Below, in pieces: positions 15,407 to 36,982 of a stretch of 41,915 nt of DNA. Under the pieces are notes generated by a model. It searched no databases, had not been told where the DNA came from, and saw only the letters and a list, made by a program, of their open reading frames with translations. A program made the position numbers and the translations under genes. Position 1 is the first letter of the stretch. Every line of letters begins with the position of its first letter. The DNA is taken from positions 4,952,433 through 4,994,347 of the forward strand of contig CP070758.1 in NCBI GenBank assembly GCA_020348925.1, read 5' to 3'. This DNA comes from Gemmatimonadota bacterium (lineage in GTDB: Bacteria; JBHIER01; G020348925).

Positions 15407-15481
15407 TTTCTGTACCCTATTCTTTAAACTGATAAACTGAAAATCAAGTTCCGTAGCGATGCATGTGCTCTACCGTAATCA

Positions 15482-15994: not shown

Positions 15995-17266
15995 CTACAC
16001 GACCTCCTCCGGATGCGCAATCTTTCCCGCCACAGCCGACGCAGCCGCCACCGCCGGACTGGCCAGATAGATTTCACTGCTGAGCGGTCCCATGCGCCCG
16101 ACGAAATTGCGATTGCTCGTGGAGACACACCGCTCCCTCTCCCCCAGTACGCCCAGGTGTCCACCGATACACGGACCGCAGGAGGGCGTGCTGAAGGCGC
16201 ATCCCGATTCGATGAAGGTCTCCGCAAGCCCCTCATGGATCGCCTGAAGGGCAACCTTCTGTGTGCCGGGGAAGATGAGCGCCCGAACCTTCGGATGGAC
16301 CCTCTTCCCTTTGAATACTTCCGCCGCAATGCGAAGATCCTCGATCCGGCCGTTGGTGCAGAAACCGATTACGACCTGATCGATGTCCACCTCTCCCACT
16401 TCGCGAACCGGCTTCACATTCTCCGGTAAGCTGGGAACAGCTACTTGAGGTTCAATTTCGGACAGATCGTATTCCAATGTCCTGACATATTCGGCATCCG
16501 GATCACTTTTAAAATTCCTCATTCTCGATTCATGATCCTCAATTGTCCCTTTGACATACTCCACAGTCTTTTCATCGGCTTCAAAAATGCCCGTCTTGGC
16601 TCCGGCTTCTATGGCCATGTTGGCCATGGTGAACCGATCAGCTATACTCAAATGGGTCACGCCCTCTCCGGTGAACTCCAGAACCTGGTAAATAGCCCCG
16701 TCAACGCCGAGATCCCCGATAGTGTAGAGAATGATATCCTTCCCGCTGACCCATTTGCCCGGTTGTCCGTAATAAACCAACTTGATCGATTGGGGCACCC
16801 GCAGCCACACCTGTCCAATTGCGAAGGCAGCCGCCACATCGGTGCTGCCCACCCCAGTGGCAAAAGCTCCCAAAGCCCCGTAGGTACACGTATGGGAGTC
16901 ACCCCCGATGATCAAGTCGCCCGGGGCCACAAGACCCTCCTCCGGCAGGAGAACGTGCTCGATCCCTCCCCGACCGACCTCGAAGTAATGGGTGATCCCG
17001 TATTCTTGGGCAAACCGGCGAACCGCTTTGGTAATCTCCGCCGTTTTCATGTCCTTGTTGGGCGTGAAATGGTCTGGCACGAGTGCGATCTTTTCCGGAT
17101 CAAAGACGCGCTTCGGCTTAATCTTCTCAAATTCTTGAATGGCCAGAATCGCAGACAGCTCGTTGGCCATGACCAGATCGATCACGGCCATGATGAGCTC
17201 ACCGGCCCGGACCTCTTCCCGGCCGGCGTGAGCGGCAAGAATTTTTTCGGCTATAGTCATACTCAT
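15995..17266 (-). CDS. leuC: aconitase-family large subunit, LeuC/HacA type
   Basis: This [4Fe-4S] dehydratase subunit is about 423 residues long. The three cluster cysteines are in [12 protein letters not shown] (about 303) and SCGPCIGGH (about 363 and 366). Other family blocks include [36 protein letters not shown] and [11 protein letters not shown]. The size fits the compact archaeal/anaerobe LeuC2/HacA group rather than the 465-residue enterobacterial LeuC. An open frame begins at TTG 17272, but ATG at 17266 is the more likely start. It follows the aminotransferase by about ten bases. Confidence 0.92.
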
Positions 17267-17275
17267 GGTCAAAAT

Positions 17276-18595: not shown

Positions 18596-19841
18596 TTTGG
18601 GCTTCCTTTCCCGATTGGACAATGGCCGTTATCTCATCATCCGTTAAGACAAAATTGGCATGCTTGGCTGCATCAAATATTCGGTTCACCAAGGTTCCCT
18701 CCGGCTCAATGTTGTGCTGTTCCAGCCAATATATAACATTTGATTCTCCACTCATTGGTCCGATCTCAATTTTCTGTTTCAGCCCGAAAGCACCCGCCGG
18801 CACACCGGAATAGACCCTGTCAGCAAGCCAGGCGTCCCCCTTTTTCTGTGCCTTTATCACCGCCGCAGCGTGAACGCCTGTGGCGGTCCGAAAAGCATCT
18901 TCACCGACGACCGGATAGTTCTTGGGCAGAGGTACGTGACAGGCTTCGGCAACAAGCCTGCAGTATTCCGATAGTTTCGTCAGATCCTGATCGATCCAGC
19001 CCAGCAGCCTGAAATTGACCAAAAGCAAATCCATGGGGGTGTTGCCCACTCGCTCGCCGATGCCGAGAGCGGTCCCATGGACACGATCAGCCCCGGCAGC
19101 CACAGCCGCAATCGTATTCGGTACGGACAACCCTCTGTCTCTGTGCCCATGCCAATCGATTTTTACGTCCTCACCTGTCTCAGCCACAACCTCTCTGACG
19201 TATGAAATGAGCCGGCCCACCCCTTCAGGAATGGCATGACCGACGGTATCGCAGACACAGATCCGTCTGGCACCGCATTCAATAGCCGTGGTATACAGTT
19301 TTTTGACCGTTTCCGGTGTGGCGCGGGTCGTATCCTCGGTTACGTACATCACCGGCAAGTCGTGACCGACCACGTAGGTTACTGCCTCCTCGGTGTGTTT
19401 GAGCATTCTATCAAGCGTCCATCCTTCTGCGTATTGCCGGATGGGGCTCGATCCGATGAAAACCGATGCCTCGATGGGAAGACTTAATTTCTGGGAAATA
19501 CTGATGATCGGATCAATGTCAACCTTCAGGGTACGGGCAGCGCAGTTTGCTTCAATGTTCAGTTTGGCCTGTGCGATCTCCTGGGCCAAAGCCGTCACAT
19601 GTTCGACAGCCCTCGGTCCCGCCCCAGGCAGCCCGATATCCGCGCTGTGGATGCCCAGCTCGTCCATGAGATGCAGGATACGTATCTTCTCATCAATAGT
19701 CGGATCCTTCACCGACGGCGATTGAATTCCATCACGCAAGGTCTCATCATCAAACTCAATCACCCCTCCCGGTTTCCACCCCTCTGCAATTTCATTCCAA
19801 TCGAAAATGAGCTCTTTTTCCTCGAGATTTTTCATACTCAT
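18585..19841 (-). CDS. homocitrate/isopropylmalate/Re-citrate synthase-family acyltransferase
   Basis: This is a 418-residue enzyme of the DRE-TIM metallolyase group, condensing acetyl-CoA with a 2-oxoacid. The family motif appears as DDETLRDGIQSP (about 31-42; R36, D37), the metal site as HGHRDRGL (H231, H233), and later GTALGIGERVGNTP. It lacks the roughly 130-residue C-terminal leucine-sensing domain of classical LeuA. The N terminus WKPGGVIEF is not typical of NifV or LeuA. Candidates are homocitrate synthase, isopropylmalate synthase or Re-citrate synthase; neighbours korABC and LeuCDB-like enzymes fit any of them. It overlaps the porB stop by four bases. Confidence 0.85.
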   Translation of the reverse strand: MSMKNLEEKELIFDWNEIAEGWKPGGVIEFDDETLRDGIQSPSVKDPTIDEKIRILHLMDELGIHSADIGLPGAGPRAVEHVTALAQEIAQAKLNIEANCAARTLKVDIDPIISISQKLSLPIEASVFIGSSPIRQYAEGWTLDRMLKHTEEAVTYVVGHDLPVMYVTEDTTRATPETVKKLYTTAIECGARRICVCDTVGHAIPEGVGRLISYVREVVAETGEDVKIDWHGHRDRGLSVPNTIAAVAAGADRVHGTALGIGERVGNTPMDLLLVNFRLLGWIDQDLTKLSEYCRLVAEACHVPLPKNYPVVGEDAFRTATGVHAAAVIKAQKKGDAWLADRVYSGVPAGAFGLKQKIEIGPMSGESNVIYWLEQHNIEPEGTLVNRIFDAAKHANFVLTDDEITAIVQSGKEAQNER

Positions 19842-20728
19842 CTCACCTTTTCAAGCAGTTCTTCCCATGTTTCATCCACATTGTGCTGAATTTGGTCGAT
19901 CTCCGCCTGCGTTAGATGTCGAAACCGACCTTGAAGTTTCAGATACTCTTTCACGGCAATCGGACCCGGATCTAAGGTAATCGTATACCTTTTTCCGTAC
20001 TCAATCTCATAAAGAGGGTAGATCCTGGACTCCACGGCCAGCCGGGCCACCTTCACAGAAATATCGGAGGGCGTTTTCCATCCGCTGGGACACGGTGAAA
20101 AGACCTGAACATATCGAGTTCCGAAAATCGCCTTGGCCTTCTTCAGCTTGTTCACATAGTCTTCGGGAAAGGCCACCGATGCTGAGGCTGCATAGGGGAT
20201 CTTGTGCGCGGCCATGATGGCCATCATATCTTTCTTGGGTCGATCTTTGGGATGATCGTAGGGCGTCGTTCCGGTCCAAGCCCCCCAGGGAGTTGCAGAA
20301 CTCCTTTGAATACCTGTATTCATATAAGCCTCGTTATCATAACACACGTACAAAATATTTTCGTTCCGTTCCGCCGCAGCGGATAAAGCCTGCAATCCAA
20401 TGTCAAAGGTGGCTCCATCACCACCCCATGCCAGGACGGTGACATTATCAACGCCTCGCACATCGAGCCCGGCTCGCACCCCCACTGCCGCCGAGGCCGT
20501 CGTCTCAAAAGCGGTATGAAGAAAGGGCACCATGGACGAGGAATGGGGAAACATCCCATCAACCACAGCCGAGCAGCCGGCCGGAACGACGAGGATCGTC
20601 CTCTTCCCCAGGGCCTTGAGGGCCAGTCTCATGGCCAGTTTCTCCCCACAGCCCGGACAGGCCAAGTGGCCGCATGAGAGCCATTCCTGCTCAGGAATCC
20701 TCCCCTCTATCTTTTGATATCCAACCAC
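19838..20728 (-). CDS. porB: 2-oxoacid:ferredoxin oxidoreductase beta subunit (PorB-like)
   Basis: This is the thiamine-diphosphate-binding subunit, 296 residues. Conserved blocks: CGHLACPGCGEKLAMRLALK near residues 19-38 with cluster cysteines, the ThDP-Mg motif AWGGDGATFDIGLQALSAA (GDG near 104-106), CYDNEAYMNTGIQRS, and FSPCPSGWK. These match pyruvate synthase PorB more closely than KorB. It begins at a GTG 22 bases before the porA stop. Together with porA and the gamma subunit from the preceding kor genes it could form a second enzyme of different substrate range. Confidence 0.9.
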   Translation of the reverse strand: MVGYQKIEGRIPEQEWLSCGHLACPGCGEKLAMRLALKALGKRTILVVPAGCSAVVDGMFPHSSSMVPFLHTAFETTASAAVGVRAGLDVRGVDNVTVLAWGGDGATFDIGLQALSAAAERNENILYVCYDNEAYMNTGIQRSSATPWGAWTGTTPYDHPKDRPKKDMMAIMAAHKIPYAASASVAFPEDYVNKLKKAKAIFGTRYVQVFSPCPSGWKTPSDISVKVARLAVESRIYPLYEIEYGKRYTITLDPGPIAVKEYLKLQGRFRHLTQAEIDQIQHNVDETWEELLEKVR

Positions 20729-21861
20729 AGGACCGGTTCCTCCGGCTCATCATGAGTATTCATATATTCGAAGGCTCTACGAATCGTTGCCATGGTCACG
20801 TCTCTCCCCCCCAAACCGGCTATAAAACCGAAAAGGAGTGGCCGCTCCTTCTCGGTGTATAACACAGATTTTATCTCTTGAAAAATGATACCGGTCTGTC
20901 CGAAGGAGATGTTTCGATCGATGACACCAACTTTATGCACGCCTCCGAAGGCCTGCCGGATCTCTTCAACTGGAAAGGGTCGAAAGATACGAATCCTTGC
21001 GGCCCCGACACTGTAACCCTCATCCCTGAGTTCATCGACAACGCACCGTGCCGTACCCGCCATTGTTCCCGACGAAACGATAAGCGTCCCGGCATCCTCT
21101 ATTCGATAGAACTCTAAGGGATTATAACTCCGCCCGAAAGTTTCTTTAAACTCAAGAGCGGCTTTATTCACTACGCCCCTCGCCTCCTCCATCGTCTTCT
21201 GAATCTTGTACCGCATCTCTGCGTAGTACTGGGGAACGGTCCCTCCATAAAACGTGTGAGGATCATCGACGTCCAAGGTATAGGGTGCCTCTCGCCGGGG
21301 CAAATAGGTATCGACGTCCTTTTGATCCGGAATATCGACCGGCTCTGAGGTGTGGGAGAGGAAGAATCCGTCCATCATAATCATACTCGGCAGCTGGATC
21401 TCCTCCGAGATTCGGTACGCCTGAATGACCGAATCGAGAACCTCCTGATTGCTCTCGCAATAGAACTGCAGCCAGCCTGTATCCCGTTGGGCCAGACTGT
21501 CATTGTGATCACACCAGACGGTCCAGGGCGCGGCCATGGCCCGATTCACGTTGACCAAGACGATAGGAAGCCTAGCTCCCACGGTCCAGTGGAGCAGCTC
21601 ATGCATGAGGGCTAGCCCCTGGGCCGACGTCGCCGTAAAAACACGAGCGCCGGCAGCAGACGCACCGATACAACTGGCCATGGCCGAATGCTCCGACTCA
21701 ACCTTGATAAAACGCGCCTTCAGCTCCCCGCTGGCGTTCCATTCGGAAAGTTTCTCAACGACGCTTGTCTGCGGAGTGATGGGGTAGGCTGCGATCACCT
21801 CCACTCTCGATAACTTGACAGCCTGAGAGACAGTATAATTACCAGTCAGTATTTTCTTCAC
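20707..21861 (-). CDS. porA: 2-oxoacid:ferredoxin oxidoreductase alpha subunit (PorA-like)
   Basis: This alpha subunit (384 residues) carries the pyrimidine-side domain. It opens with KKILTGNYTVSQAVKLSRV and the hallmark AAYPITPQTSVVEKL, then ESEHSAMASCIGASAAGARVFTA split over about 55-77, and RIFRPFPVEEI in the C-terminal part, all like pyruvate:ferredoxin oxidoreductase PorA. The start is GTG without a strong ribosome binding site, 59 bases after the gamma subunit. No separate gamma or delta gene accompanies porAB, so it probably shares those of the kor set. Confidence 0.9.
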   Translation of the reverse strand: MKKILTGNYTVSQAVKLSRVEVIAAYPITPQTSVVEKLSEWNASGELKARFIKVESEHSAMASCIGASAAGARVFTATSAQGLALMHELLHWTVGARLPIVLVNVNRAMAAPWTVWCDHNDSLAQRDTGWLQFYCESNQEVLDSVIQAYRISEEIQLPSMIMMDGFFLSHTSEPVDIPDQKDVDTYLPRREAPYTLDVDDPHTFYGGTVPQYYAEMRYKIQKTMEEARGVVNKAALEFKETFGRSYNPLEFYRIEDAGTLIVSSGTMAGTARCVVDELRDEGYSVGAARIRIFRPFPVEEIRQAFGGVHKVGVIDRNISFGQTGIIFQEIKSVLYTEKERPLLFGFIAGLGGRDVTMATIRRAFEYMNTHDEPEEPVLWLDIKR

Positions 21862-21920
21862 ATCGAGACTCTGATTCGCCCTAAGTCGGTGCTCTATCCT
21901 TCCTTCAAATCGAGTTAAAT

Positions 21921-22466
21921 CTAATGTTTTTTAACTATGCTTCCAAGTTGAAAACCCACATCGACGGCCTTTTTGTTTGCCTCCAGATGCCTCCCATCAA
22001 GCGTCTTGTCAAGAGCCAGCTTCAGAGAGTCCGGGGTGACAATCCCGGTAACACTGACGACAGCGGCCAGGAGTACCGTATTGGCTACCAATCGGTTATC
22101 AAAAATCTGAAGGGCCCTTTGGGTTGCCGGAACGGGAAAATGGGAAAGGGCAATCTGCGGATTGGGTGTGACCAGTTCCTCATCATGAAAGATGACGCCA
22201 TGCTCCGGAACGACATCACAGCAATATTTATTGTAGGCCGGCTGGGACATGGCGATCAGGATGTCGGCCTTCAGTACATGGGGATAATCGATCCAACCGT
22301 CAGAGATGACGACTTCGGACTTGCAGGCGGAGCCCCGGGCTTCCGCCCCATAGGATGATGACTGGGCCGCATATTTGCCGTCAAGTATGCCTGCGTGGCC
22401 AAGAATGACCCCGGCCAAAACGATCCCCTGACCCCCGAAACCGCATATGCGTACCTGCTTTATCAT
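21921..22466 (-). CDS. korC: 2-oxoacid:ferredoxin oxidoreductase gamma subunit
   Basis: The 181-residue gamma domain opens with KQVRICGFGGQGIVLAGVIL, the standard signature, followed by QSSYGAEARGSACKSEV-type sequence (about 36-52) and a C-terminal LDGRHLEANKKAVDVGF segment. It overlaps korB by four bases. It lies between korB and porA and is the only gamma gene in the window, consistent with sharing between two alpha-beta pairs. Confidence 0.92.
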   Translation of the reverse strand: MIKQVRICGFGGQGIVLAGVILGHAGILDGKYAAQSSSYGAEARGSACKSEVVISDGWIDYPHVLKADILIAMSQPAYNKYCCDVVPEHGVIFHDEELVTPNPQIALSHFPVPATQRALQIFDNRLVANTVLLAAVVSVTGIVTPDSLKLALDKTLDGRHLEANKKAVDVGFQLGSIVKKH

Positions 22467-23224
22467 GACGTCACAAATTCTCCGGTTACGATCTTATACT
22501 TCAACTCCTCAGAACCCATCGTTTCTGCTTTCTGTCTGCTGACACAGTCCTCCTTCAGCGTCTGAAGCATCTCAAAGGCCGTGCCAGAAACATTGCGCCG
22601 GCCGAACTGGGTCGGGCAGGGCGAGAGGACCTCGATGAAGGACAATCCTGTATGCTCCAGTCCTCTCTGAATCGACCGAATAAGCGGCTTCACCTGATGA
22701 ACCGAATACCGGGAAACATACGTCCCGCCAGCGGCTTCCACGAGTTTACATAAGTCAAAGGGCCGTTCCCTGTTTCCGTCAGGTGTGGTTGAGGTTCGCA
22801 TGCCCAAAGGGGTCGATGCCGCGACCTGACCCCCGGTCATGCCGTAAATACCGTTGTTGGCACAAATGATGGTGAGATCGATATCCCTTCTGGCAGCGTG
22901 AATGAGATGATTCCCCCCTATGGAAGCGATGTCACCGTCGCCGCTGATGACAACGACCTTGAGGGAAGGCTTGAACAACTTCGCTCCGGTGGCGAAGGCA
23001 ACCGGTCTCCCATGGGTCACGTGGAGTGTGTCGGCCGCAAAATGGGGGCTCGGAATCCAAGCTCCGCAACCGATCCCGGAGACAAAGAGCATGCCGTCCA
23101 TATCGTATCCCAGTTCATCAATGGCCCGTAGGATCGCTCCCATGAGTATACCGTGGCCGCACCCCGAACAGAACGGTGTCGGAAATACTTCTGTTCGTAG
23201 ATATTTGTAAAGATGTTTACTCAT
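22463..23224 (-). CDS. korB: 2-oxoacid:ferredoxin oxidoreductase beta subunit (KorB-like)
   Basis: The 253-residue ThDP-binding subunit shows FCSGCGHGILMGAILRAID (about 18-36), the GDGDIASIGGNHLIHAARR ThDP-Mg motif (about 94-112), NNGIYGMTGGQVAAST and FIEVLSPCPTQFGRRN. The size and motifs fit 2-oxoglutarate synthase KorB. It overlaps korA and korC by four bases each, so the three are translationally coupled. In Thauera aromatica a KorAB enzyme regenerates the ferredoxin used by benzoyl-CoA reductase, a precedent for this gene neighbourhood. Confidence 0.92.
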   Translation of the reverse strand: MSKHLYKYLRTEVFPTPFCSGCGHGILMGAILRAIDELGYDMDGMLFVSGIGCGAWIPSPHFAADTLHVTHGRPVAFATGAKLFKPSLKVVVISGDGDIASIGGNHLIHAARRDIDLTIICANNGIYGMTGGQVAASTPLGMRTSTTPDGNRERPFDLCKLVEAAGGTYVSRYSVHQVKPLIRSIQRGLEHTGLSFIEVLSPCPTQFGRRNVSGTAFEMLQTLKEDCVSRQKAETMGSEELKYKIVTGEFVTS

Positions 23225-24378
23225 GGTTGTGTCACCGCTCGTTCTCTCACAAACTCAATGATCTTGGTCGGCTTCATCGTCTCTCCGTTCGTCTGGGGAA
23301 GAGAGATGACATCTCTGTCCAGAAGCCGCTCGATCTCCCGACAGATCTGGCCCTGATTCAACTCGGGCACAACCACCTCTTTACATTTTTGAGCCGACTC
23401 AACAACGACTCTCTCAGGAAACGGCCATATCGTCCTGAGACGTAAAAGACCCACTTTTTGACCTTCGTCCCGCAGAACTTTGGCTGCGCTTAAGGCCGCC
23501 CGGGCCGTTATACCATAGGCTACGAGCAGTACATCCGGTCCATCGTCCAGGAAGTACGAGTCCGTATCCACAATCTCATCCGCCCGGTTTCGAATTTTGC
23601 CGACGAGCCGGGACACCAACCGTTCGTGCACTTCTGAAACCTGGGTTTTCCGATAGCCGAACGGATCATGGGTCGATCCAGTGACCAGGAGTTTTTCCCC
23701 GTCGCCAAAACAGGGCATGGGAGGAACACCGCCGGGCTCGTCCGTATGAAAAGGCGGCTGTCCGGGAGCCTTGTCCCGCTCAAAGACGGTCACTTCCTGT
23801 TCAACGGTTACGTTTTCCCGAAGATGGCCCACACCCTCATCGGACAGGACGAAGACAGGAACCCGGAACCGTTCGGCCAGATTGAAGGCTCTGATCGTCA
23901 TATCGTAGATTTCCTGAACAGACCATGGTGACAGGGCAATGATCTCGTAGTCACCGTGAGAGCCATATTTCACCTGAAGCATATCGCCGGAGCCAGGTCT
24001 CGTGGCCTGACCTGTTGACGGACCGGCCCTCTGAATGTCGACGATGACAAGGGGCGTCTCCGTCATTGCCGCGTAGCCGATGTTCTCCATCATCAGGCTC
24101 AAACCCGGTCCTGAAGTGGAGGTCATAGGTTTCGCACCGGCCCAAGATGCGCCGATCATGGCCGCGATGGATCCGATTTCATCCTCCATTTGAACGAAAA
24201 CACCATCACAATCCTTGAAGCGCCGGACAATGTGCTCCATCACCTCGCTGGCCGGGGTGATGGGATAACCGGCGAAGAACCGGCAGCCGGCAGCCACAGC
24301 ACCTTCGGCGCAGGCTTCGTCACCCTGGAGAAAATACTGGCCGGGTGGCGTGACCCCTCTTATCTTTCGATAGCCCAT
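23221..24378 (-). CDS. korA: 2-oxoacid:ferredoxin oxidoreductase alpha subunit (KorA-like)
   Basis: This is a 385-residue alpha subunit. Seen: GDEACAEGAVAAGCRFFAGY then PITPASEVMEH, QMEDEIGSIAAMIGASWAGAK, TSTSGPGLSLMMENIGYAAM and a C-terminal RLRTIWPFPERVV. These are KorA-type features. The start ATG has no convincing ribosome binding site, and the 222 bases between it and the ferredoxin gene hold a dispersed inverted-repeat element, so the insertion may have altered translation coupling with the ferredoxin. Confidence 0.92.
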   Translation of the reverse strand: MGYRKIRGVTPPGQYFLQGDEACAEGAVAAGCRFFAGYPITPASEVMEHIVRRFKDCDGVFVQMEDEIGSIAAMIGASWAGAKPMTSTSGPGLSLMMENIGYAAMTETPLVIVDIQRAGPSTGQATRPGSGDMLQVKYGSHGDYEIIALSPWSVQEIYDMTIRAFNLAERFRVPVFVLSDEGVGHLRENVTVEQEVTVFERDKAPGQPPFHTDEPGGVPPMPCFGDGEKLLVTGSTHDPFGYRKTQVSEVHERLVSRLVGKIRNRADEIVDTDSYFLDDGPDVLLVAYGITARAALSAAKVLRDEGQKVGLLRLRTIWPFPERVVVESAQKCKEVVVPELNQGQICREIERLLDRDVISLPQTNGETMKPTKIIEFVRERAVTQP

Positions 24379-28607: not shown

Positions 28608-28829
28608 CTATGTTAATATTCTCTTACGCCTTGTAAAAACTTCCTTATACTTTTTGTAGTCTGACTCAAAACACTCCGTGCATTCGCCGACCATCTCCTC
28701 CGGTCTGACCGGCTCAATATGAGTTTCGAATCCCAGGGATTCATAGAGATCGACCAGCTCCCTCACCCGAGGCTCATCGGCAATCGACCGACTCTCCCAG
28801 CCCCCTTTTTCAAGTTCCTCGCGATTCAT
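28608..28829 (-). CDS. 73-residue conserved-looking small protein with CxxCF motif
   Basis: I do not recognise this family. It is acidic in the first half with VRELVDLYESLGFETHIEPV, then ECTECFESDYKKYKEVFTRR: a single CxxC pair and a basic C terminus. The fold could be a small metal-binding or thiol protein. It is packed nine bases after the acetyltransferase and ten bases before the alcohol dehydrogenase, so it belongs to the operon. Its start follows TAGGACTCAAC without a strong ribosome binding site. Confidence 0.6.
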   Translation of the reverse strand: MNREELEKGGWESRSIADEPRVRELVDLYESLGFETHIEPVRPEEMVGECTECFESDYKKYKEVFTRRKRILT

Positions 28830-28837: not shown

Positions 28838-29299
28838 CTAATCGATTCTTAATTCCAGACTAATCCGCTTTGCCGGAGCAAATCCCTGATTATTGAAGAA
28901 TTTCAGTAGGTCAATATCATCCCATCCGACCTGGGTTGTGACCCGCTCTCCACCAGCTTTCTTTACAGTTGTGACGAATTCCTCCAAAAGAACCTTTGCA
29001 ATACCTTGATGTTGATAATCGGGATCGACACCCAGCGTATCGATTGTGGCCGTTGTTTCCGGTATGCCAAACTCACCAATTGACACGTTGCCCATGATGA
29101 ACCCGACAACCTTCCCATCCACCTCAGCCACCAGTGATGTGACGAGCTTCTGCTCATCATCAAGAGCCTGAAATACCTTTCGACGTAAATAATTCATCCG
29201 TCGCCTACCGGTTATCTTGGCATCGATCCCAACGATACGATCATAGTCCTCTTTTTTAATAACTCGAGTAACAATATCTTGCTTCGCAATCTTAGCCAT
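28838..29299 (-). CDS. GNAT-family N-acetyltransferase
   Basis: This 153-residue GNAT fold protein has the acetyl-CoA pyrophosphate loop in TLGVDPDYQHQGIAKVLLEE (about 96-115), preceded by the LVAEVDGKVVGFIMG strand-turn-strand and followed by WDDIDLLKFFNNQGF. In Rhodopseudomonas acetyltransferases either acetylate aryl-CoA ligases or remove inhibitory aminobenzoates (BadL), so a regulatory or detoxifying role in this operon is plausible but unproven. It starts 17 bases after the 844-residue oxidoreductase. Confidence 0.88.
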   Translation of the reverse strand: MAKIAKQDIVTRVIKKEDYDRIVGIDAKITGRRRMNYLRRKVFQALDDEQKLVTSLVAEVDGKVVGFIMGNVSIGEFGIPETTATIDTLGVDPDYQHQGIAKVLLEEFVTTVKKAGGERVTTQVGWDDIDLLKFFNNQGFAPAKRISLELRID

Positions 29300-29316: not shown

Positions 29317-31851
29317 CTAAAATAAGTCATCAAGTTCATCCACCCCCCCGCCAGGCATACGACCGTGCTCCTTCAGGTGTTGCTGAAGAAGCTCGCTTTC
29401 CCTCTTCGTATACATTGGATCCTCCTCGAAGAGAACATACCTGGCATTTACCCCCTGCTGCAATACTTCCTCCAATGCCTGACGCAGGTTCATGGTACCG
29501 GTTATCTGTAAAACTTCCTTCGCTTCATCGAAAAGTTGAAAGACGCCACCCTTCTCAGGAACGGTACTCAAGATTTCCGGCATTAATTCCATCAACTTTT
29601 CGATCTCAGGAGGAAAAACGACCTGAGTCATCTTTAAACGTAAATCGCACTGCAGGCACCGCTGTGCCTCTTCAACAGCCTGTTCCCGATTGTACCCCAA
29701 TTCGATCTCGGCAAAATTTTTTGTCCGCTCATCCACCGGAAGGCACGGCATCGCTGTTCGCGCGCGATCCGCAAATCCCTCATCTCGACCGAGTCGGGGG
29801 TCCGGTTTTTCGAGTTGAATCAGCGTCTCGGCTATCTCACCCTTACCGCCGAGGTCTCGATCGATGGTCATTGCCGCCTTTCGCCCTGCGGCAATGGCCT
29901 CAATGACAGAGGTCGATCCATCAACGCAGTCTCCTCCCGCGAAGACACCATCAACATTCGTCACCAGCGTTTCGCCTTCCGTTTTGATTGTGCCAACGTC
30001 GCTCGTATGGATTCCGGATCCATTCAAAAAGGAAGAATCAGGGGCCTGGCCAATGGCCAGGATCACCATATCGGTCTCGATCCTCTTCGTCTCAGACTCA
30101 TCAAAACAGGGCTTGAATTTCCCTTCATCGTCGAAGACGGAAGAGCACCGGACGAAATCTATACCTTGAACCTCATTCTTCTCTCCGAAGATCCGTTTCG
30201 GTCCCCACGAAGGATAAATCTGTATACCCTCCTCCGCCGCCCTCCGGACCTCCCATTCGTGAGCCGGTATCTCCTCGTCACATTCCAGACAGGTCAGGTG
30301 AATATCCTTGGCCCCAAGACGTCGAACAGTCAAGGCGACGTCGATGGCCACATTGCCACCGCCAACGACAACCACACGATCCTTGACGTCAATCTCCTTG
30401 TCAAGATTGACGTCCCTTAGGAAATCCATTCCCCACAGGATACCGTTCAGATCGGTTCCCTCAATGTCCAGTTTTTTGCTGAGTGGTGTACCTGAGGCAA
30501 TGAAGATTGAATCAAACCCCTCATTTCTTAGATCCGTAAGAATCTTCTCCTCTCCAATCGGCGATGCGGTCTTGATCTCCACCCCCATGGCAGTGATTTC
30601 GGCGATCTCCCTTCTCAACACATCACCGGGCAATCGGTACGCCGGTATTCCCGTGCGCATCATTCCTCCGGGCTCCGGAGATGCCTCGAAGACGGTCACC
30701 GAATGACCCAGTCTCGTAAGATAGTACGCCGTCGTGAGACCCGCAGGTCCTGAGCCAACAACCGCCACACGCTTTCGCGTGGCAGGAGCAATCTTGATAT
30801 TTTGTTTCCATTGTCCGTTGTCGTTTTCGGCAGCAAAACGCTTCAAAGCGCATATGGCAATCGGCTCATCCACCTCACCCCGCCGGCAGACGTCTTCGCA
30901 CGGATGAAAGCATACGTGTCCCAGTATCTCAGGGAACGGCACCTTTTCTCGAACAACAGCCGCAGCTTCCGCAAATTTACCCTGGTTGATACATCGAATG
31001 TATCGAGGGACATCGATCTCGACCGGGCAGTTGTGAAGACAGGGCAGGAGAAACATCTCCCTGTCATCCATTGCCCCTTTATCCATTAAAGCTCCAGTGG
31101 GGCAAACCTCGACACAGGCGGTGCAGAATTTACAGTCGGATGCACTCGGTGAAGGGCCGACTGTCCCGACAACTGCCTTTCCGTCCTGATAGATAAATCC
31201 CAGGGCATCAATTCCTCTCAAATCCCGACAGGCCCGCACACAGCGGGTACATCCGATGCACAGATTATAATCGCGTTTGAAAAGGGGATCATCTCCAAAA
31301 ACAGGCAGCTCCGTGGGAATCCATCGCGGTGTTTCCTCCTTGATCTTAACATACTCCGCCACTTTTTGCAGCTCGCACTGGCCGAACTTCGGACAGCAGC
31401 GCTCGTTTTCAGGAACGTTGGTCGAACACTGGGTCAGGCTGCATCCCTCCTTCTGGGCGCAGGTGAGGCAGGCGTGAGGGTGGTTTTGAAAAATAACAGC
31501 CAGGTTATCTCTTCTTGCACTCAGGACCTTGGGCGTATCCGTCAATACGACCATCCCCTCTTCAACATCAGTTGAACAAGCCCGATGCAGTCCGTTTCTT
31601 CCCTCAATCTCTATCAAACAGAGTTTGCACCCCTCCTCATCTTGGCGTATTGGTTCCAATGATGTTCCCTTGAAAATCTCATCACCCCGATACACCACCT
31701 CTTGAGGAACCATGCCTTTCATCGGAGGTAAATCCGGATGGTAGCACAGATGCGGGATATAGACGTCAGCCGCTAACGCTGCCTCCAGAATCGATGAACC
31801 GTCCTCGGCTTGAATTCCCTTGTCGTTTACTTTCAATGAAATCATATTCAT
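29317..31851 (-). CDS. fused iron-sulfur/FAD/NAD(P) oxidoreductase, probable ferredoxin reductase of the BCR system
   Basis: An 844-residue multi-domain redox protein. Order: [2Fe-2S] domain (C36, C75, C78, C92), NuoG-type His/Cys cluster region (HPHACLTCAQKEGC, about 124-137), two [4Fe-4S] motifs CIGCTRCVRAC (198-208) and CKFCTACVEVCP (240-251), a GltD-like Fe-S part (CLHNCPVEIDVP near 271; CFHPCEDVCRR near 314), the FAD site VAVVGSGPAGLTTAYYL (362-378), the NAD(P) site VVVVGGGNVAIDVAL (about 490-504), and a C-terminal domain from about 767 that looks like a degenerate GIY-YIG fold. GltD-like ferredoxin reductases (BzdV-type) occur in Bzd clusters to re-reduce ferredoxin. The N-terminal NuoG/HydB-like modules could allow electron confurcation with a further partner; this is inference. 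Confidence 0.85.
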   Translation of the reverse strand: MNMISLKVNDKGIQAEDGSSILEAALAADVYIPHLCYHPDLPPMKGMVPQEVVYRGDEIFKGTSLEPIRQDEEGCKLCLIEIEGRNGLHRACSTDVEEGMVVLTDTPKVLSARRDNLAVIFQNHPHACLTCAQKEGCSLTQCSTNVPENERCCPKFGQCELQKVAEYVKIKEETPRWIPTELPVFGDDPLFKRDYNLCIGCTRCVRACRDLRGIDALGFIYQDGKAVVGTVGPSPSASDCKFCTACVEVCPTGALMDKGAMDDREMFLLPCLHNCPVEIDVPRYIRCINQGKFAEAAAVVREKVPFPEILGHVCFHPCEDVCRRGEVDEPIAICALKRFAAENDNGQWKQNIKIAPATRKRVAVVGSGPAGLTTAYYLTRLGHSVTVFEASPEPGGMMRTGIPAYRLPGDVLRREIAEITAMGVEIKTASPIGEEKILTDLRNEGFDSIFIASGTPLSKKLDIEGTDLNGILWGMDFLRDVNLDKEIDVKDRVVVVGGGNVAIDVALTVRRLGAKDIHLTCLECDEEIPAHEWEVRRAAEEGIQIYPSWGPKRIFGEKNEVQGIDFVRCSSVFDDEGKFKPCFDESETKRIETDMVILAIGQAPDSSFLNGSGIHTSDVGTIKTEGETLVTNVDGVFAGGDCVDGSTSVIEAIAAGRKAAMTIDRDLGGKGEIAETLIQLEKPDPRLGRDEGFADRARTAMPCLPVDERTKNFAEIELGYNREQAVEEAQRCLQCDLRLKMTQVVFPPEIEKLMELMPEILSTVPEKGGVFQLFDEAKEVLQITGTMNLRQALEEVLQQGVNARYVLFEEDPMYTKRESELLQQHLKEHGRMPGGGVDELDDLF

Positions 31852-31856: not shown

Positions 31857-32144
31857 TTACCAGGAGTGCGTGATGGCATCCTGGGCGCATGCTGCCATAC
31901 AGGGCAGCGGCGGTCGATTGCTCACCGGCTTGCCGGGCCCGCAGCTGTATTTGATCTTTTTTCGATGCGCGTCGGTCACCGAGGCGATCATATCCCCTTC
32001 GATGGGATCGTACTGATCCTCAATGACCTCCAAAACTTTCGCCGGACAGGCTTCGACGCAATCGCCGCAGCCGTTGCATTTTTCCGTATCAACTGTTATA
32101 AAGTATTCTCCTGACCCGTCCTTATATCCGTAGTTGGCTAACAT
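31857..32144 (-). CDS. ferredoxin, two-cluster, probable electron donor to the reductase
   Basis: This 95-residue protein has one clear [4Fe-4S] motif, CNGCGDCVEACP (about 23-34). A second, irregular set of cysteines lies in YSCGPGKP and LPCMAACAQDAI (about 67-90). It differs from simple 2[4Fe-4S] ferredoxins by the approximately 30-residue insertion between the motifs. A ferredoxin gene (bzdM) follows bzdQ in Azoarcus; the same position here, apart from an inserted gene, supports that role. It ends five bases before the oxidoreductase start. Confidence 0.85.
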   Translation of the reverse strand: MLANYGYKDGSGEYFITVDTEKCNGCGDCVEACPAKVLEVIEDQYDPIEGDMIASVTDAHRKKIKYSCGPGKPVSNRPPLPCMAACAQDAITHSW

Positions 32145-32227: not shown

Positions 32228-32608
32228 TTAATACACAATTCTTTTAATACCTTTTTTCAAAACCGCCATATTAAAATTGATGAGTAGTCCTACCTTAAGG
32301 TCAGAGGCTTTGCAATATGAGATAACTTGTGCTCGGTGAACTTCATCAAACCTCTCAACGGATTTAATTTCCAAGACAACTTTACCCTCGACAATAAAAT
32401 CTAATCTATGTTTACCTACTTGCTCATCCTTGTAAAATATCCCGATCTCTTTCTGTCTTTCATACTTGATTTTTCTGGAATCAAATTCCTTTGCAAGCGC
32501 TTGTTCATAAATCGATTCTAAATAACCAGGTCCCAATTCGCGGTGAACTTCAATTGCCGCGGAGATTACTTTTTCCGTTATATCGGAATGAGGATACTCT
32601 TCTTTCAT
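32228..32608 (-). CDS. GxxExxY protein (PD-(D/E)XK nuclease-like family)
   Basis: This 126-residue protein has the family-naming motif in GPGYLESIYEQALAKEF (about 26-42) and a nuclease-like core HRLDFIVEGKVVLEIKSVER, with D and E-x-K spaced as in the PD-(D/E)XK fold, followed by QVISYCKASDLKVGLLINF. Function in cells is unknown; a nuclease or nucleic-acid role is inferred. Genes of this family are scattered through genomes next to CACAGAG-type repeats. Here it sits inside the reductase operon between bzdQ and the ferredoxin, is more AT-rich than its neighbours, and has no metabolic link to them, so it is probably an insertion. Confidence 0.9.
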   Translation of the reverse strand: MKEEYPHSDITEKVISAAIEVHRELGPGYLESIYEQALAKEFDSRKIKYERQKEIGIFYKDEQVGKHRLDFIVEGKVVLEIKSVERFDEVHRAQVISYCKASDLKVGLLINFNMAVLKKGIKRIVY

Positions 32609-32628: not shown

Positions 32629-32700
32629 GACACCCAGAGATACTGAGAATCAATTTAATATTATTCAGTATTCCTCTGAGTCTCTGCGCCTCTGTGGCTA
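32629..32700. repeat. paired CACAGAG-type repeats, right of the GxxExxY gene
   Basis: A direct copy (CACAGACACCCAGAGA then TACTGAGAATC, 32633-32659) is followed by an inverted copy (CTCTGAGTCTCTGCGCCTCT then GTGG, 32674-32697). The two can pair as a long imperfect hairpin. The last bases GTGGCTA include the bzdQ stop codon on the minus strand. A shorter related piece, CTGAGCCTCTGTGG, occurs at 35823-35836 between bzdO and bzdN. Confidence 0.65.
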
Positions 32701-33567
32701 TTTCTTTCTCTCTTTCTCCAATAATGCCTTTGCAAACAATGCTCCTCCAAGAGCACCGGCAATTTGAGTGTCGTGTTTCGGTTTCAGGGCCTCGAAGCCG
32801 ATCTCCTGTTCGAGCCTTTTAACGACACCGGAGTTTTTGGCTATGCCCCCGGTGATGGCAAAATCTTTCTCCACACCAATGCGTTCTAACAGAGTGAAAA
32901 CCCGATGGGCCATGGCCGAGCAATATGCGGCCAACACCTTACTCTTCGGCCAGCCCTCTCGCAACAGTGATGTTGCCTCGGACTTGGCGAAGACGACGCA
33001 GGTGCTGCTCACCGGCTCGGGTTCCTCTTCGACGTCGAACGACATGTCTCCAACCTCTTCAATGGAAACGGACAGGAGATCTGCAAAGACTTCCATACCC
33101 CGGCCCGTCCCGGCGGCGCACTTGTCGTTCATGAGAAAGTTGGTCACTTTACCACGCTCATCGCAATGAATGGCCTTGCAATCCTGGCCACCCATGTCGA
33201 GCACGGTGCGCACACCCGGTCCATACATCCAGTTGGCCCCACGGGCGTGGCAGGCGATTTCAGTTATGGGCCTCTTGGCAAAGGGTACATTCACGCGCCC
33301 GTAACCCGTCCCGACGACGTACTGCACATCCTCCAGCGTCATTCCCGTCTCCTCCATGGCCCAATTCATCGCGTTCCGAGCGCTGTCCGGGCTGTCCGAT
33401 CCGGTGCGCATATTACTGTATGCAAAGAGCTGACCGTCCGTCATAATCACCGCCTGGGAACTGACGGACCCGACGTCAACGCCGGCTGTCACGGACTCAG
33501 CCTGCTTCCAATCAATGTCAGGCGAGTGCCAATTATACTCCTTCCATCGCCAGTATTCTTCAGCCAT
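32698..33567 (-). CDS. bzdQ: benzoyl-CoA reductase-type ATPase/activator subunit (BzdQ-like)
   Basis: This 289-residue member of the ASKHA ATPase/activator family (BadF/BadG/BcrA/BcrD) couples ATP hydrolysis to electron transfer. The phosphate-binding loop VTAGVDVGSVSSQAVIM (about 26-42), the cluster-bridging motif MNDKCAAGTGRGMEVFA with C150, and VSSTCVVFAKSEATSLL with C190 are seen, then ITGGIAKNSGVV near the C terminus. A 25-residue N-terminal extension rich in W and E precedes the fold. With the paralogue upstream it would form the ATP-hydrolysing heterodimer bridged by one [4Fe-4S] cluster. The stop codon lies within a mobile-looking repeat. Confidence 0.82.
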   Translation of the reverse strand: MAEEYWRWKEYNWHSPDIDWKQAESVTAGVDVGSVSSQAVIMTDGQLFAYSNMRTGSDSPDSARNAMNWAMEETGMTLEDVQYVVGTGYGRVNVPFAKRPITEIACHARGANWMYGPGVRTVLDMGGQDCKAIHCDERGKVTNFLMNDKCAAGTGRGMEVFADLLSVSIEEVGDMSFDVEEEPEPVSSTCVVFAKSEATSLLREGWPKSKVLAAYCSAMAHRVFTLLERIGVEKDFAITGGIAKNSGVVKRLEQEIGFEALKPKHDTQIAGALGGALFAKALLEKERKK

Positions 33568-33616: not shown

Positions 33617-34396
33617 TCATTTGTTTTTCGCATGTTCTGCCGCCACTATTGCTGCCCCCAAGGCACTCACATATTCAGGCTCCTCGGGTATGGAGAATGA
33701 AATTTCCAAATTGTCTTCGAGAGACTTCACAAATCCAACGTTTCGGGCCACGCCTCCGATAAGAGCGACATCCTTCTCAATACCCACTCGCCTGACCATC
33801 GATGAGATCCGGTCTGCAATGGCATCGTGCACGGCCCTGGCAATATCCTCCTTGGCTGTTTTCGCATGGATAAGCGTGACGACTTCAGACTCCGCGAAGA
33901 CGGCACACTGCGCATTCATCGGCACGGCCTTCTGAGACTTTAGGGAGAGCGGTCCCATTTCTTCCAACCGAATCTCTAACGCTCTGGCCATAGCCTCCGT
34001 GAAGGAGCCGGCCCCTGCTGCACATTTCTCATTGACGGCAAAATCGATCACCTTACCCTTCCCGTCGCTTTTGATGGCTCGGCCTTCCTCTGCACCAACA
34101 TCGATAATAGTCTTTGCCGAGGGAAAGAGAAAGTTGGCCCCTTTGGCATCAGCCCCGACTTCTGTGACCGTATCCTGGGCGTACTGCGCTTCTTTCATCC
34201 CGGCGCCTGTTGCCGTAATGTTGGATACGTCACTCTTGGACATGCCCGCCATTTCCAAAGCCGCTGCAAAAGACTGCTCCGCCGCCGCTCTCTGATCGAA
34301 TCCGCTCAAGACAATGCTCTTAGCAACGATCTCGCCGTCCTTTAAGAGGACCACTTTTGTATTCTTCGCCCCGCAATCAACTCCAGCCGTAATCAT
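33617..34396 (-). CDS. bzdP: benzoyl-CoA reductase-type ATPase/activator subunit (BzdP-like)
   Basis: This is a 259-residue paralogue of the next gene. GVDCGAKNTKVVLLKDG is the phosphate-1 loop, NEKCAAGAGSFTEAMA carries C125, MNAQCAVFAESEVVTLI carries C164, and LIGGVARNVGFVKSLE the adenosine motif. ATG 34396 is chosen because GGAGGAG lies six to seven bases upstream; an ATG at 34417 is in frame but has no such site. Having two distinct activator subunits argues for a class I aryl-CoA reductase, since 2-hydroxyacyl-CoA dehydratases use one homodimeric activator. Confidence 0.82.
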   Translation of the reverse strand: MITAGVDCGAKNTKVVLLKDGEIVAKSIVLSGFDQRAAAEQSFAAALEMAGMSKSDVSNITATGAGMKEAQYAQDTVTEVGADAKGANFLFPSAKTIIDVGAEEGRAIKSDGKGKVIDFAVNEKCAAGAGSFTEAMARALEIRLEEMGPLSLKSQKAVPMNAQCAVFAESEVVTLIHAKTAKEDIARAVHDAIADRISSMVRRVGIEKDVALIGGVARNVGFVKSLEDNLEISFSIPEEPEYVSALGAAIVAAEHAKNK

Positions 34397-34439
34397 GAGA
34401 ATCTCCTCCGGATGCATTTAATATTTCGTTTCCCAAAAA

Positions 34440-35756
34440 TTACTCCTCGATCTTTTTCATATCCAATGTTTCCATAAAGGCATCAATCCTGGCCATGGTC
34501 CGGGTCTCATCAAACTCCCGCTCGTCGCCCATATTGCCTTCAAAAGTCATGACCGGAAATCCGGCTTTTTGAAGGGCCAGCCTGTTTTCAGCAATGCCCA
34601 CCGTAAGGCCCTCGCAGCCACGGTTGTAATGGAGCATGACACCGTTCAGTTTCCATTCCTTGGCGATGCGGATCATCATATCGCTCTTATAATCCGGTGA
34701 ATAGAAATGCTGCCACTCGGGCTTGCTCAGATTCCACTCGGCTAATATTCTTAAGGCCTGATCCCGATCTTTGATCTCGATTCCCTTCTGCTGCGGTGTC
34801 GTTCTCGGTCCCCACATCCCGTCCTCCTTTACTTCCCACATTCCGATGAGACCGAAGGTATACAAGGAACCGACCGAGACCGTACCAAATTTCTCGAGAT
34901 AGCGAAACACCCGCAAGAACCCCCAGGGCGGCTGCGTGTCGGTCATGACCCGGCACTGCTCGTTCCCGACGGCCGCGATGCCGCGCTCCACCCGATCCTT
35001 CACTTCGTCTCTCAACTCCTCGTAGTAATCGGCCACGATCTGACTGTGTTTCATCAAGGTACCCAACACGTAGAGGGAATACATGGATTTCTCATCCAAT
35101 GGAGCCGGGATCGTCTTGTTGAGCGTACAGATCTCGGCCCAGACCGATGTGGCCCGACATTCATCGTTGACGGCCTTGATCAGAAACTCATCGTTGTATG
35201 TCCGACCCGTCACCTTCTCCATCCAATCGATGCCGTCGTGCATCTGACCCACGACATAATTGAGTTTATTTTCTGATAACTGTTCATAGGGATAAGGGCC
35301 GACCGCCACGTCGATGCAGTAATGGGGAATGTCCGGCTCCAGATCCGTTACCACCTGGTACCATTTGGCGTGGCTGCAGCAGATGTGATCCTGCCAGATG
35401 AAGTCCGGTTTCGGGAACTTGCCGCCGAAGGCATATTTATCAAGAATGATTGAACCCCAGTAATTGCGCATATACGAGCACAGATCCCGGGCATAGCCCT
35501 TCCGCTCTACGGCTTCAAGGCACTCCAGGGAAAACTTCTTATCAAAGGCAATGGACGCGGCATAGGGTTCAGATGTAATGTTATACACATCCTCACCCAG
35601 TCCGGCCGGGATGGCATCGAAGCTCCAGGCCCCCCCCGCCCAACGAATGCCACCCTTCTCATGGGCCTGGGCATAATCCCGATAGTAATTCTCCCGAATC
35701 TCCTTGGCCCTATTCCACGTCTTCAAAGGTTCGGTCGGATATTTTGTTTTCGCCAT
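34440..35756 (-). CDS. bzdO: benzoyl-CoA reductase-type subunit B (BzdO-like, HgdB/FldBC family)
   Basis: This catalytic-side subunit of about 438 residues is related to BcrB/BzdO and to 2-hydroxyacyl-CoA dehydratase subunits. Cysteines likely to hold a [4Fe-4S] cluster are C93 ([14 protein letters not shown]), C126-C127 ([14 protein letters not shown]) and one in [14 protein letters not shown]. The final block [20 protein letters not shown] is typical of the family. ATG 35756 has GGAG six bases upstream; the GTG at 35771 would add five residues. It lies between bzdN and bzdP in the Azoarcus bzdNOPQ order. Confidence 0.82.
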
Positions 35757-35848
35757 TTTTCGCTCCTTCACAACAATACTTCACATCTGTCATCGAATAT
35801 CTGCTACCTTTCTCTTTATCCCTGAGCCTCTGTGGGATAAATTCCAAT

Positions 35849-36982
35849 TTAAAACAGATCCTCTTCCCTCAACATCTCCAGAAACGCTTCAACCCTCACC
35901 TGGAACTGCCCCACAGGCACGGTCACGTCAAATTCGAGGAAGAGAGTCGGAATATCGTTTTCCTCAAACAGTTTCTTAATGGCCGGAATATCGAGCTCGT
36001 GGGGATCGCAGAACTTCTGCTGGATGAGGATAGCTCCCTGGACTCCGTATTCCTTGGCCAGATTCAACATGTGAGGTAATCTCGTCCTCTCCGGCCAGTC
36101 CTTGGAGGGGCAGGCAGGACGGTTGATGTAGCGTGCTGCGATGGCCTCGAGACGGTTCTCGTTGGGCGTCACCTCGTTCCAGAAGTAGCGGCTGCCTGTG
36201 CAGTGGTCATCGACGACAAAGGTGGCCCCCAGGGATTCCACCATTGACAAAAATTCCGTATCATCGTCCTCACTGCCTAAAATCATCAAGCGCTCTCCCG
36301 CAGGCCGGTCCAACGTCCGGTTCTGGAGTTCGTTCAGCGTCTCCTCATGAATGCGATTGTGCTCCTCTTTATCAATCATCTGGCTTGAAACAACCATGTA
36401 CATTGCTTCCAGACCGGTGAGAGGCGGATTATCCCCTTTACGCATCTCATAAATCTGCTTCATGAGACGGCGGTTTTTATTGACCGTCTCTATACCACGG
36501 TCAAGATCATTCTCTGTAATGGGCTTCCCTGTCCATTCTTCGATCGATTTCTGAAACTCTTTCAGCTCACCGGTCAGGTAGGGCAGCGCCCGCGGACTCT
36601 GTATGTGGTGGGGAGTCGTCATGTAATAACTGTACTCGATGGGAATATGGAGCTGCCAGGAGGTGAAGGCCTGCCTGATATGAAGGCATGACTGGGCGAT
36701 CATGATGCCGTCCAGATAATCGTAGCGGCCTTTGAGTCCCTGGGCCAGGCAGTCGCGGCAGAAGGGACAGAACATGCCAAAGATGTGCGGCTCGGTCACG
36801 TCCTGGGGCTCGTGGCTGCCCAGTATCCTCACGGGCAAGATATCCGCTGCACACAAAATCTCTTCAGGCACGTAAGTGCAGAAGTAGCCCATGACCTTGC
36901 CACCGTTTTTTTCTTTCCAATTCTTGACGTATTCATGTCGATTGTCGTACCATTCTTGAAACATTTCAATCATGTGGTACAT
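35849..36982 (-). CDS. bzdN: benzoyl-CoA reductase-type subunit C (BzdN-like, HgdB/FldBC family)
   Basis: This 377-residue partner of BzdO forms the substrate-reducing half of the enzyme. Cysteine positions are C35, C44, C72, C75, C78 (MFCPFCRDCLAQGLKGRYDY split at 71-90) and C99 (AQSCLHIRQ). The end motif PTLFLEFDVTVPVGQFQVRVE is like other dehydratase/reductase subunits. Length fits BcrC/BzdN (about 380). ATG 36982 is used; ATG 36973, better spaced from GGAAAGG, would shorten it by three residues. It heads the four-gene block, 109 bases after the asparaginase gene. Confidence 0.82.
   Translation of the reverse strand: MYHMIEMFQEWYDNRHEYVKNWKEKNGGKVMGYFCTYVPEEILCAADILPVRILGSHEPQDVTEPHIFGMFCPFCRDCLAQGLKGRYDYLDGIMIAQSCLHIRQAFTSWQLHIPIEYSYYMTTPHHIQSPRALPYLTGELKEFQKSIEEWTGKPITENDLDRGIETVNKNRRLMKQIYEMRKGDNPPLTGLEAMYMVVSSQMIDKEEHNRIHEETLNELQNRTLDRPAGERLMILGSEDDDTEFLSMVESLGATFVVDDHCTGSRYFWNEVTPNENRLEAIAARYINRPACPSKDWPERTRLPHMLNLAKEYGVQGAILIQQKFCDPHELDIPAIKKLFEENDIPTLFLEFDVTVPVGQFQVRVEAFLEMLREEDLF

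Follow-up and report, generated by a model that had tools for sequence, protein, structure and literature searches.

In silico analyses were carried out on a 41,915-nt stretch of the genome of a Gemmatimonadota bacterium (GCA_020348925.1, contig CP070758.1; hereafter the window), and concern a reverse-strand gene encoding an 844-residue iron-sulfur (Fe-S) flavoprotein that lies in an operon for a class I (bzd-type) benzoyl-CoA reductase (BCR). This one-chain enzyme, which by its operon context is a likely counterpart of the product named BzdV in other organisms, probably moves electrons between NADH and the ferredoxin feeding BCR. The reading that we favour, with a probability of about one half, is a soluble NAD(H):ferredoxin oxidoreductase that is dedicated to the BCR system, does not bifurcate and is pulled by ATP.

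From the sequence we infer the following cofactor use, electron path and direction. NADH would give a hydride to the FAD of the GltD-like unit, which would split it into single electrons, and these would reach the ferredoxin encoded directly upstream, and then BzdNOPQ, along a path of at most seven Fe-S clusters: a pair of GltD type, a pair of ferredoxin type, the His/Cys cluster, the cluster of the extra Cys4 set and the [2Fe-2S] cluster. The uphill step from NADH to ferredoxin would be paid by the ATP of BCR, keeping the ferredoxin oxidised, with no second flavin or carrier involved. The Kor-like enzyme of the same block could fill the same ferredoxin pool, and BzdV could also run in reverse, draining surplus reduced ferredoxin to NAD+.

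The open reading frame (ORF; 29317-31851) starts with ATG and shows no interruption. Pfam matches along the chain were to Fer2_4 in two stretches (best 74-106), NADH-G_4Fe-4S_3 (113-139), Fer4_Nqo3 (189-255), Fer4_20 (270-344) and Pyr_redox_2 (361-656), an order that agrees with the original prediction, made from the DNA letters, of a NuoG/HydB-like N terminus ahead of a GltD/NfnB-like unit in one chain. The full module order is Fer2, His/Cys region, two Fer4, GltD-like FAD/NAD(P) unit and a C-terminal domain (742-844, DUF7508) that had gone unmentioned. The order had been called unusual, and this stands insofar as the GltD-like unit follows an intact NuoG N-terminus, but one-chain proteins combining NuoG and GltD parts were already known (StnC, NsoC). 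The fusion is not due to chance, because nine homologues cover the full chain length with 48-55% identity and the candidate ligands are invariant in all 17 aligned rows; a chance joining or mis-assembly of two genes was ruled out, the same fusion occurring in the 17 rows. A NuoG/HydA-type catalytic subunit was also ruled out, as no molybdopterin or hydrogenase domain was found in the Pfam scan.

All 17 aligned BzdV-type chains share 26 Cys together with H124 and K337, and the same 28 residues are invariant in the ten rows of a smaller alignment, alongside a few further invariant His. These 28 residues are just sufficient for seven four-ligand cluster sites, so that the earlier figure of at least five sites plus FAD falls short of what the invariant ligands fit; which Cys serves which cluster we infer from the alignment. 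In the N-terminal [2Fe-2S] domain, the loop between C36 and C75 is long, with 28-41 residues after CxHPxL in 15 rows and 5 in three others (L047, L077 and L078; L082 was unmatched by this pattern). The His/Cys region, H124-x3-C128-x2-C131-x5-C137, is lengthened and holds an extra Cys4 set (142, 152, 153 and 159) beyond the known NuoG sites. This extended motif occurs in 17 of 17 BzdV-type rows, and a scan of other GltD-like loci did not detect it. In two of five solved NuoG-like chains compared, two stretches of the query align onto overlapping parts of the His/Cys region, which looks as though part of the motif had been duplicated. After the GltD-like unit, the pair C732-x2-C735 would complete the GltD-type clusters; RCxxC is also present in StnC and in most other GltD-like chains scanned.

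The nucleotide specificity can be approached through a motif known from relatives. In Thermotoga maritima NfnB the NADP phosphate is held by Y310-R311-R312, and kinetics on DsrL indicate that YRR enzymes use NADP(H) and that those without YRR prefer or require NAD(H) (PMC7596348). YRR is present in all five solved relatives compared at this position (9n5u, 8oh5, 9bov, 4ylf and 5jca), and ARE in Escherichia coli PreT, which is annotated as NAD-dependent. At the same position CLE occurs in 18 of 19 BzdV-type rows, the exception being the YRR module of L047 (genome G031). Because CLE replaces YRR, the DsrL precedent points to NAD(H), and the BzdV-type chain is predicted to use this carrier and not NADPH. 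The carrier of the wire initially proposed as NAD(P)H should thus probably read NAD(H), while the published label for BzdV is "putative NADPH:ferredoxin oxidoreductase" (PMC5658619).

The association with BCR is supported by both operon structure and co-occurrence. Ferredoxin and BzdQ genes directly precede BzdV in 16 of the 16 loci having upstream sequence, window included; L034 and L041 start at contig ends, and the upstream context of L039 and L040 is uninformative because both begin at a 100-N gap (these two Bathyarchaeota near copies are included in the CLE count of 19 rows, whereas neither the trees nor the 17-row alignment contain them; L083 has a truncated C-terminus). Relatives were found at 12 loci, ten of them real (Heimdall- and Hermodarchaeota, Bathyarchaeota, Elusimicrobia) and two remote Bacillaceae matches (20%; L042 and L043) being disregarded. 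The genome itself has a single such chain, each other match listed covering part of it only. In a survey of 386 genomes (those listed are marked only as "same domain"; two candidates were scored per genome and matches taken at E <= 1e-100, best first), bzdQ exceeded its cut-off in eight, and in seven of these the same contig carried a relative above 900 bits that covers the N-terminus; among the matches listed, no such relative occurred in the remaining 378 genomes. A bzdQ match of 287.6 bits in G032, below cut-off, was not counted. Among 295 genomes of one further class, that of G202, bzdQ was found in three, each with BzdV adjacent, adding three further bzd loci; in the order of G333 the search gave 0 of 154, an empty answer from the search tool that is not evidence of absence. 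In sum, BzdV lies just downstream in 10 of 11 genomes with bzdQ over the cut-off. Both the profiling with class I reductase and the operons therefore support the central claim of the original prediction, a wire between NAD(P)H and ferredoxin that is linked to the ring reductase, and homologues do not lie mainly outside aromatic-degradation clusters or apart from a ferredoxin gene. Yet three chains of the same order, without tail and extra Cys, do occur outside BCR operons, after NuoE/NuoF genes (see below). No relative was found in the viral contigs searched, and in tblastn against plasmids the matches were to the GltD half or were weak and spread over two genes (coverage of the query reached 80% in 2 of 436 records), while no close BzdO turned up.

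The original prediction had raised the possibility of confurcation involving a third carrier, on the ground that NADH alone cannot easily reduce the low-potential ferredoxin; this is not supported. The FAD of StnC has been called non-bifurcating, its adjacent cluster having a Lys ligand where NfnB has Glu (PMC10482914), and the residue aligned with this Lys is K337. Pfam detected no second flavin unit in the 844-residue chain. The flanks of 15 of 15 BzdV loci, very unequal in length (4.3 kb for L035), contained no NuoE/NuoF homologue, and a scan of the window genes revealed none either. The genome has three NuoF-like genes, each adjoined by a NuoG-like gene. With one flavin unit, a Lys ligand, no NuoE/NuoF in the flanks and NuoF-like genes already paired, the chain is read as a plain wire, and confurcation was rejected as its main function. 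Benzoyl-CoA lies at about -620 mV, each of the two ATP spent per two electrons yields about 50 kJ/mol, and NADH lies at -320 mV; the effective acceptor level of BCR is therefore near -100 mV, so that electron flow from NADH to BCR would be exergonic overall as long as the ferredoxin stays mostly oxidised. On these general values, the pull by ATP could answer the objection regarding NADH. By analogy, a precedent for an Nfn-like enzyme feeding BCR is AadN of Rhodopseudomonas palustris: a mutant in aadN is impaired in growth on benzoate but grows on cyclohexane carboxylate, and of ten strains compared, seven carry aadN without korAB, two carry korAB without aadN, none carries both, and one, which does not degrade aromatics, has neither (PMC9973337).

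A number of points weigh against NADH-driven supply by a plain wire. K337 is weak evidence when taken alone because many neighbouring members of the superfamily also have Lys, and the AlphaFold model of the whole chain (predicted local distance difference test, pLDDT, 57.9) is too poor to place the electron path. We know of no activity measurement for a BzdV-type chain. The motif rule may itself have exceptions, as the GltD-like chain encoded beside Kor genes in EbN1 has VRS at the YRR position and its A. evansii relative is NADP-linked. AadN is an imperfect precedent because it may bifurcate. The ferredoxin of the Thauera aromatica BCR is quoted at -587 mV, far below NADH (PMC9973337); with a ferredoxin at this level the NADH-driven reaction would be slow. 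The DsrL authors associate enzymes of the NAD(H) type with oxidative operation (PMC7596348), which speaks for electron flow from ferredoxin to NAD+. Finally, genome G138 has bzdQ over the cut-off and no BzdV at E <= 1e-60; no close BzdN/BzdO was found in the 30 kb examined there. Its locus (L080, 1564-6118) has the order BzdP-BzdQ-ferredoxin-small ORF-GNAT, and next comes a gene of the aldehyde:ferredoxin oxidoreductase family, whose product may be another source of electrons.

The main rival, which we regard as possible but doubtful, is an enzyme working chiefly as an exergonic ferredoxin:NAD+ oxidoreductase that drains surplus reduced ferredoxin from 2-oxoglutarate oxidation when BCR is idle. 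This direction requires no coupling, genes for KorABC-like and further 2-oxoacid:ferredoxin oxidoreductases are found in the same block, and the NAD(H)-type motif has been linked to NAD+ reduction, again by the DsrL authors. The gene is, however, tied to BCR above Kor: BzdQ is just upstream in all informative loci, while Kor/Por homologues, some of them weak, occur in 7 of 15 flanks (window excluded; unequal lengths), and the Rnf genes of the window could transfer electrons from ferredoxin to NAD+ with energy gain.

It is improbable that the chain serves on the NAD(P) side of a bifurcating complex resembling Stn, with a NuoE/NuoF module encoded elsewhere. The nearest same-order chains outside BCR operons (L077, L078 and L079) do have NuoE- and NuoF-like genes immediately before them in three of three cases, and StnABC is described as composed of NuoE/NuoF-like and NuoG/GltD-like parts (PMC10482914, PMC7483475), but in BzdV loci the partner position is taken by the ferredoxin gene, NuoE/NuoF homologues are missing from all 15 flanks, some of them short, and each NuoF-like gene of the genome stands beside a NuoG-like gene of its own. 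We give similarly little credit to a flavoprotein subunit acting on KorAB within a 2-oxoglutarate:NAD(P)+ oxidoreductase. Such an arrangement, suggested by the EbN1 GltD-like gene beside Kor genes, is favoured by L044, where a GltD-like gene stands directly before 2-oxoacid oxidoreductase alpha and beta genes, by a comparable GltD-like/2-oxoacid oxidoreductase group in the genome under study (L052), and by the joint naming of korAB and bzdV as the ferredoxin-regenerating system of BCR (PMC5736913). The subunits of L044 and L052 are, however, of about 600 aa, lack the NuoG part and fall elsewhere in the GltD tree, and the Kor genes of the window, some 5 kb from the oxidoreductase gene, already include one for a gamma subunit.

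The C-terminal domain adds a further module to the NAD(H):ferredoxin oxidoreductase favoured here. At a loose limit (E <= 5) DUF7508 matches 11 of 11 members (best 5.3e-9); for the window chain the isolated domain scores 26.7 bits against a cut-off of 26, while the whole-protein scan gives 21.7, below it. The genome has two other matches, both below cut-off (E 0.045 and 0.079), which we take to be UvrC-type GIY-YIG proteins, and among 14 control genomes 11 have a match, above cut-off in one. A model of residues 741-844 (pLDDT 69.3) retrieved, as Foldseek ranks 1-10, nine UvrC chains and one plant glutaredoxin GIY-YIG domain, with a best E of 1.5e-3 (prob 1.00; none at E <= 0.001) and VIA Z scores of 5.7-7.9, a range graded middling by the tool; hhalign against the two UvrC-type sequences gave E 2e-6 (prob 89.5). 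The modelled fold thus matches the UvrC N-domain and places the tail in the GIY-YIG superfamily, next to the GIY-YIG domains of UvrC and plant GRXS16, a redox protein fused to such a domain. An Arg following the GIY-YIG strands is catalytic in these nucleases, and the corresponding position is A, V, T, S, D or L, in no case Arg, in 15 of 15 tails, so that no nuclease activity is expected. Our guess is a docking module; in GRXS16 the GIY-YIG domain can communicate with the redox domain (PMC5890173). Literature searches returned nothing on DUF7508 or on GIY-YIG with benzoyl-CoA, and plant reviews only for GIY-YIG with oxidoreductase, glutamate synthase or ferredoxin.

Phylogenetic analyses further indicate that the modules of one chain, L047, have had separate histories. 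When the GltD part was used to build a tree (50 rows, midpoint root), the 16 CLE-type chains grouped together (support 99/89), joined at 95/81 by six other chains with CLE, CPE or SLE. L047 (9105-11642) groups there with the three 697-714-aa chains and one more (100/98, inner support being lower), while in the N-terminal tree it falls inside the BzdV group (15 rows, 96/99; L082 and L103 were left out because the pattern missed both). It has the BzdV-type N-terminus, a DUF7508 tail (33.9 bits), a YRR-type GltD module and no loop between the first two [2Fe-2S] Cys. Since N-terminus and tail are BzdV-type and the GltD part sits with Stn-like chains, L047 is a mosaic, whose nucleotide module was exchanged one way or the other. 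The 697-714-aa chains (L077, L078 and L079) have the same module order, no tail and no extra Cys; together with their NuoE/NuoF neighbours they show the composition of the Stn transhydrogenase (PMC10482914, PMC7483475). Elsewhere in the genome under study, L048 (4071-8537, near G000:C1:1540000) encodes a 1489-aa chain with several FAD/NAD domains, a CLE GltD-like unit and a C-terminal Fer4, with which matches in longer frames (1503 and 1518 aa) of G136 and G174 group. A bolder version of the favoured reading, which we consider tentative and on balance unlikely, would have NADH, pulled solely by the ATP of BCR, as the full electron source for anaerobic ring reduction via a single-chain seven-cluster wire that accompanies BCR in Asgard archaea, Elusimicrobia and further bacteria. 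In this version a GIY-YIG domain without nuclease activity would have been recruited for docking, and the nucleotide module could be replaced, from NAD to NADP type, with the docking ends unchanged.

BzdV has been named as part of the BCR ferredoxin-regenerating system (PMC5658619, PMC8163825, PMC5736913). The window gene lies, like BzdV of Azoarcus sp. CIB, Chloroflexi and Hermodarchaeota, in an operon with bzdNOPQ and a ferredoxin gene and has the same proposed partner; the likeness to Azoarcus BzdV is one of operon context and published description. Hermodarchaeota contigs (L034-L036) are among the homologues, and a BzdV protein has been reported from that group. BzdV-type relatives are thus already named, and the parts of the published descriptions available to us make no mention of the invariant ligand set with its extra Cys4 site, the NAD(H)-type motif, the GIY-YIG-like tail or the YRR mosaic. 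StnC and NsoC, the latter an NADPH-dependent sulfur oxidoreductase of T. litoralis, likewise combine NuoG-like and GltD-like modules in one chain, GltD being apparently integrated within a NuoG-like protein (PMC7483475), and StnC shares the Lys ligand and the RCxxC pair after the GltD unit. In StnC, however, the GltD unit precedes the Fer4 clusters, whereas it follows them in the window chain, and StnC carries YRR and works with NuoE-/NuoF-like subunits, of which none was found in the flanks of the BzdV loci or among the window genes scanned. NfnB and AadN, the latter also serving benzoate degradation, have a GltD-like FAD/NAD(P) module linked to ferredoxin. NfnB differs in its Glu ligand of the proximal cluster and in YRR, against K337 (invariant) and CLE, and an NfnA part (second FAD, [2Fe-2S]) was found neither in the chain nor in the adjacent genes scanned. 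DsrL, as described, is a GltD-like Fe-S flavoprotein in which nucleotide choice tracks the YRR position, but its partner is DsrAB and it has one ferredoxin domain at each end.

The supply of low-potential electrons to class I BCR has been settled in few organisms, through KorAB in Thauera and AadN in R. palustris (PMC9973337), and the locus offers a testable alternative that would use NADH, not NADPH, and no third carrier. If the NADH prediction is true, the usual annotation of the gene in 10 of the 11 bzdQ-positive genomes would change. A GIY-YIG-like fold and an extra cluster site would be added to the NuoG/GltD toolbox, and the extra Cys motif with the DUF7508 tail would provide a signature separating the BCR-linked type from Stn-like chains in metagenomes.

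Table 1. Location of the oxidoreductase gene, its modules and neighbouring features in the window
Feature	Position	Strand	Basis
844-aa Fe-S flavoprotein, predicted BzdV-type NAD(H):ferredoxin oxidoreductase	29317..31851	-	ORF, Pfam, homologues
Fer2-type [2Fe-2S] domain, residues 1-92 (C36, C75, C78, C92)	31576..31851	-	Pfam, alignment
His/Cys region with extra Cys, residues 124-159	31375..31482	-	alignment
Two ferredoxin-type [4Fe-4S] motifs, residues 198-250	31102..31260	-	Pfam, alignment
GltD-like unit, residues 271-656: Fer4_20 Cys 271, 275, 314, 318, 322, K337, FAD and NAD Rossmann folds	29884..31041	-	Pfam, alignment
CLE replacing NADP-binding YRR, residues 521-523	30283..30291	-	alignment
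Cys pair C732-x2-C735 (RCLQC), read as completing GltD-type clusters	29647..29658	-	invariant 17/17
DUF7508 / GIY-YIG-like domain and acidic tail ending DDLF, residues 742-844	29320..29628	-	profile, fold searches
BzdN, BCR subunit	35849..36982	-	TIGR03190 500.9 bits, cut-off 453.8
BzdO, BCR subunit	34440..35771	-	TIGR03191 708.9 bits, cut-off 448.6
BzdP-like activase subunit	33617..34417	-	BcrAD_BadFG, CoA_E_activ
BzdQ, BCR activase subunit	32698..33567	-	TIGR03192 445.9 bits, cut-off 380.2
Ferredoxin, 95 aa, BzdM position	31857..32144	-	Pfam, alignment
73-aa small ORF with CxxC	28608..28829	-	homologues in 9 loci
2-oxoacid:ferredoxin oxidoreductase alpha, beta, gamma (KorABC-like), other likely ferredoxin reductant	21921..24378	-	window gene scan

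The calls of BzdN, BzdO and BzdQ in the window exceed the NCBIfam cut-offs (Table 1). A PDDEXK_3 (GxxExxY-type) gene is located between bzdQ and the ferredoxin gene (32228-32608, reverse strand), with no homologue in other BzdV loci as judged by BLAST of the window genes. The ferredoxin gene ends at 31857, next to the ATG of the oxidoreductase at 31851. Its product has Gly71 (codon GGC) where the other 16 aligned ferredoxins have Cys, leaving seven Cys; the second cluster may truly be altered, or a one-base error (TGC to GGC) may account for the difference.

Placing the oxidoreductase gene between a ferredoxin gene and genes for alicyclic acyl-CoA enzymes was correct on the ferredoxin side, but downstream a GNAT acetyltransferase gene (28838-29299, reverse strand) and a 73-aa ORF intervene, beyond which are found a Had-like dehydrogenase (below the Had cut-off), two 3-hydroxyacyl-CoA dehydrogenases and an enoyl-CoA hydratase. 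GNAT homologues occur in several BCR loci, beside BzdV or the small ORF in G031, G295 and G138 and upstream of bzdN in L032, L033 and L038. The 73-aa ORF has no Pfam or NCBIfam match; its homologues lie directly after BzdV or one gene on in nine loci (window included), and one follows the ferredoxin in G138, where BzdV is missing. Its distribution suggests an unnamed companion of the BCR operon.

Further downstream, a reverse-strand block (14333-24378) contains the KorABC-like genes, a second 2-oxoacid oxidoreductase pair and HMGL-like, aconitase and isocitrate-type dehydrogenase genes, together with an aminotransferase gene. This gene set resembles one for the oxidation of acetyl-CoA to 2-oxoglutarate and then to reduced ferredoxin. 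An Rnf cluster is also present within the window. Finally, a second, distant BzdN/O/P-like set (23-37% identity) was detected directly downstream of BzdV in L101 (11691-15847), and distant BzdO/BzdP-like genes also occur near BzdV in L032 and L033.

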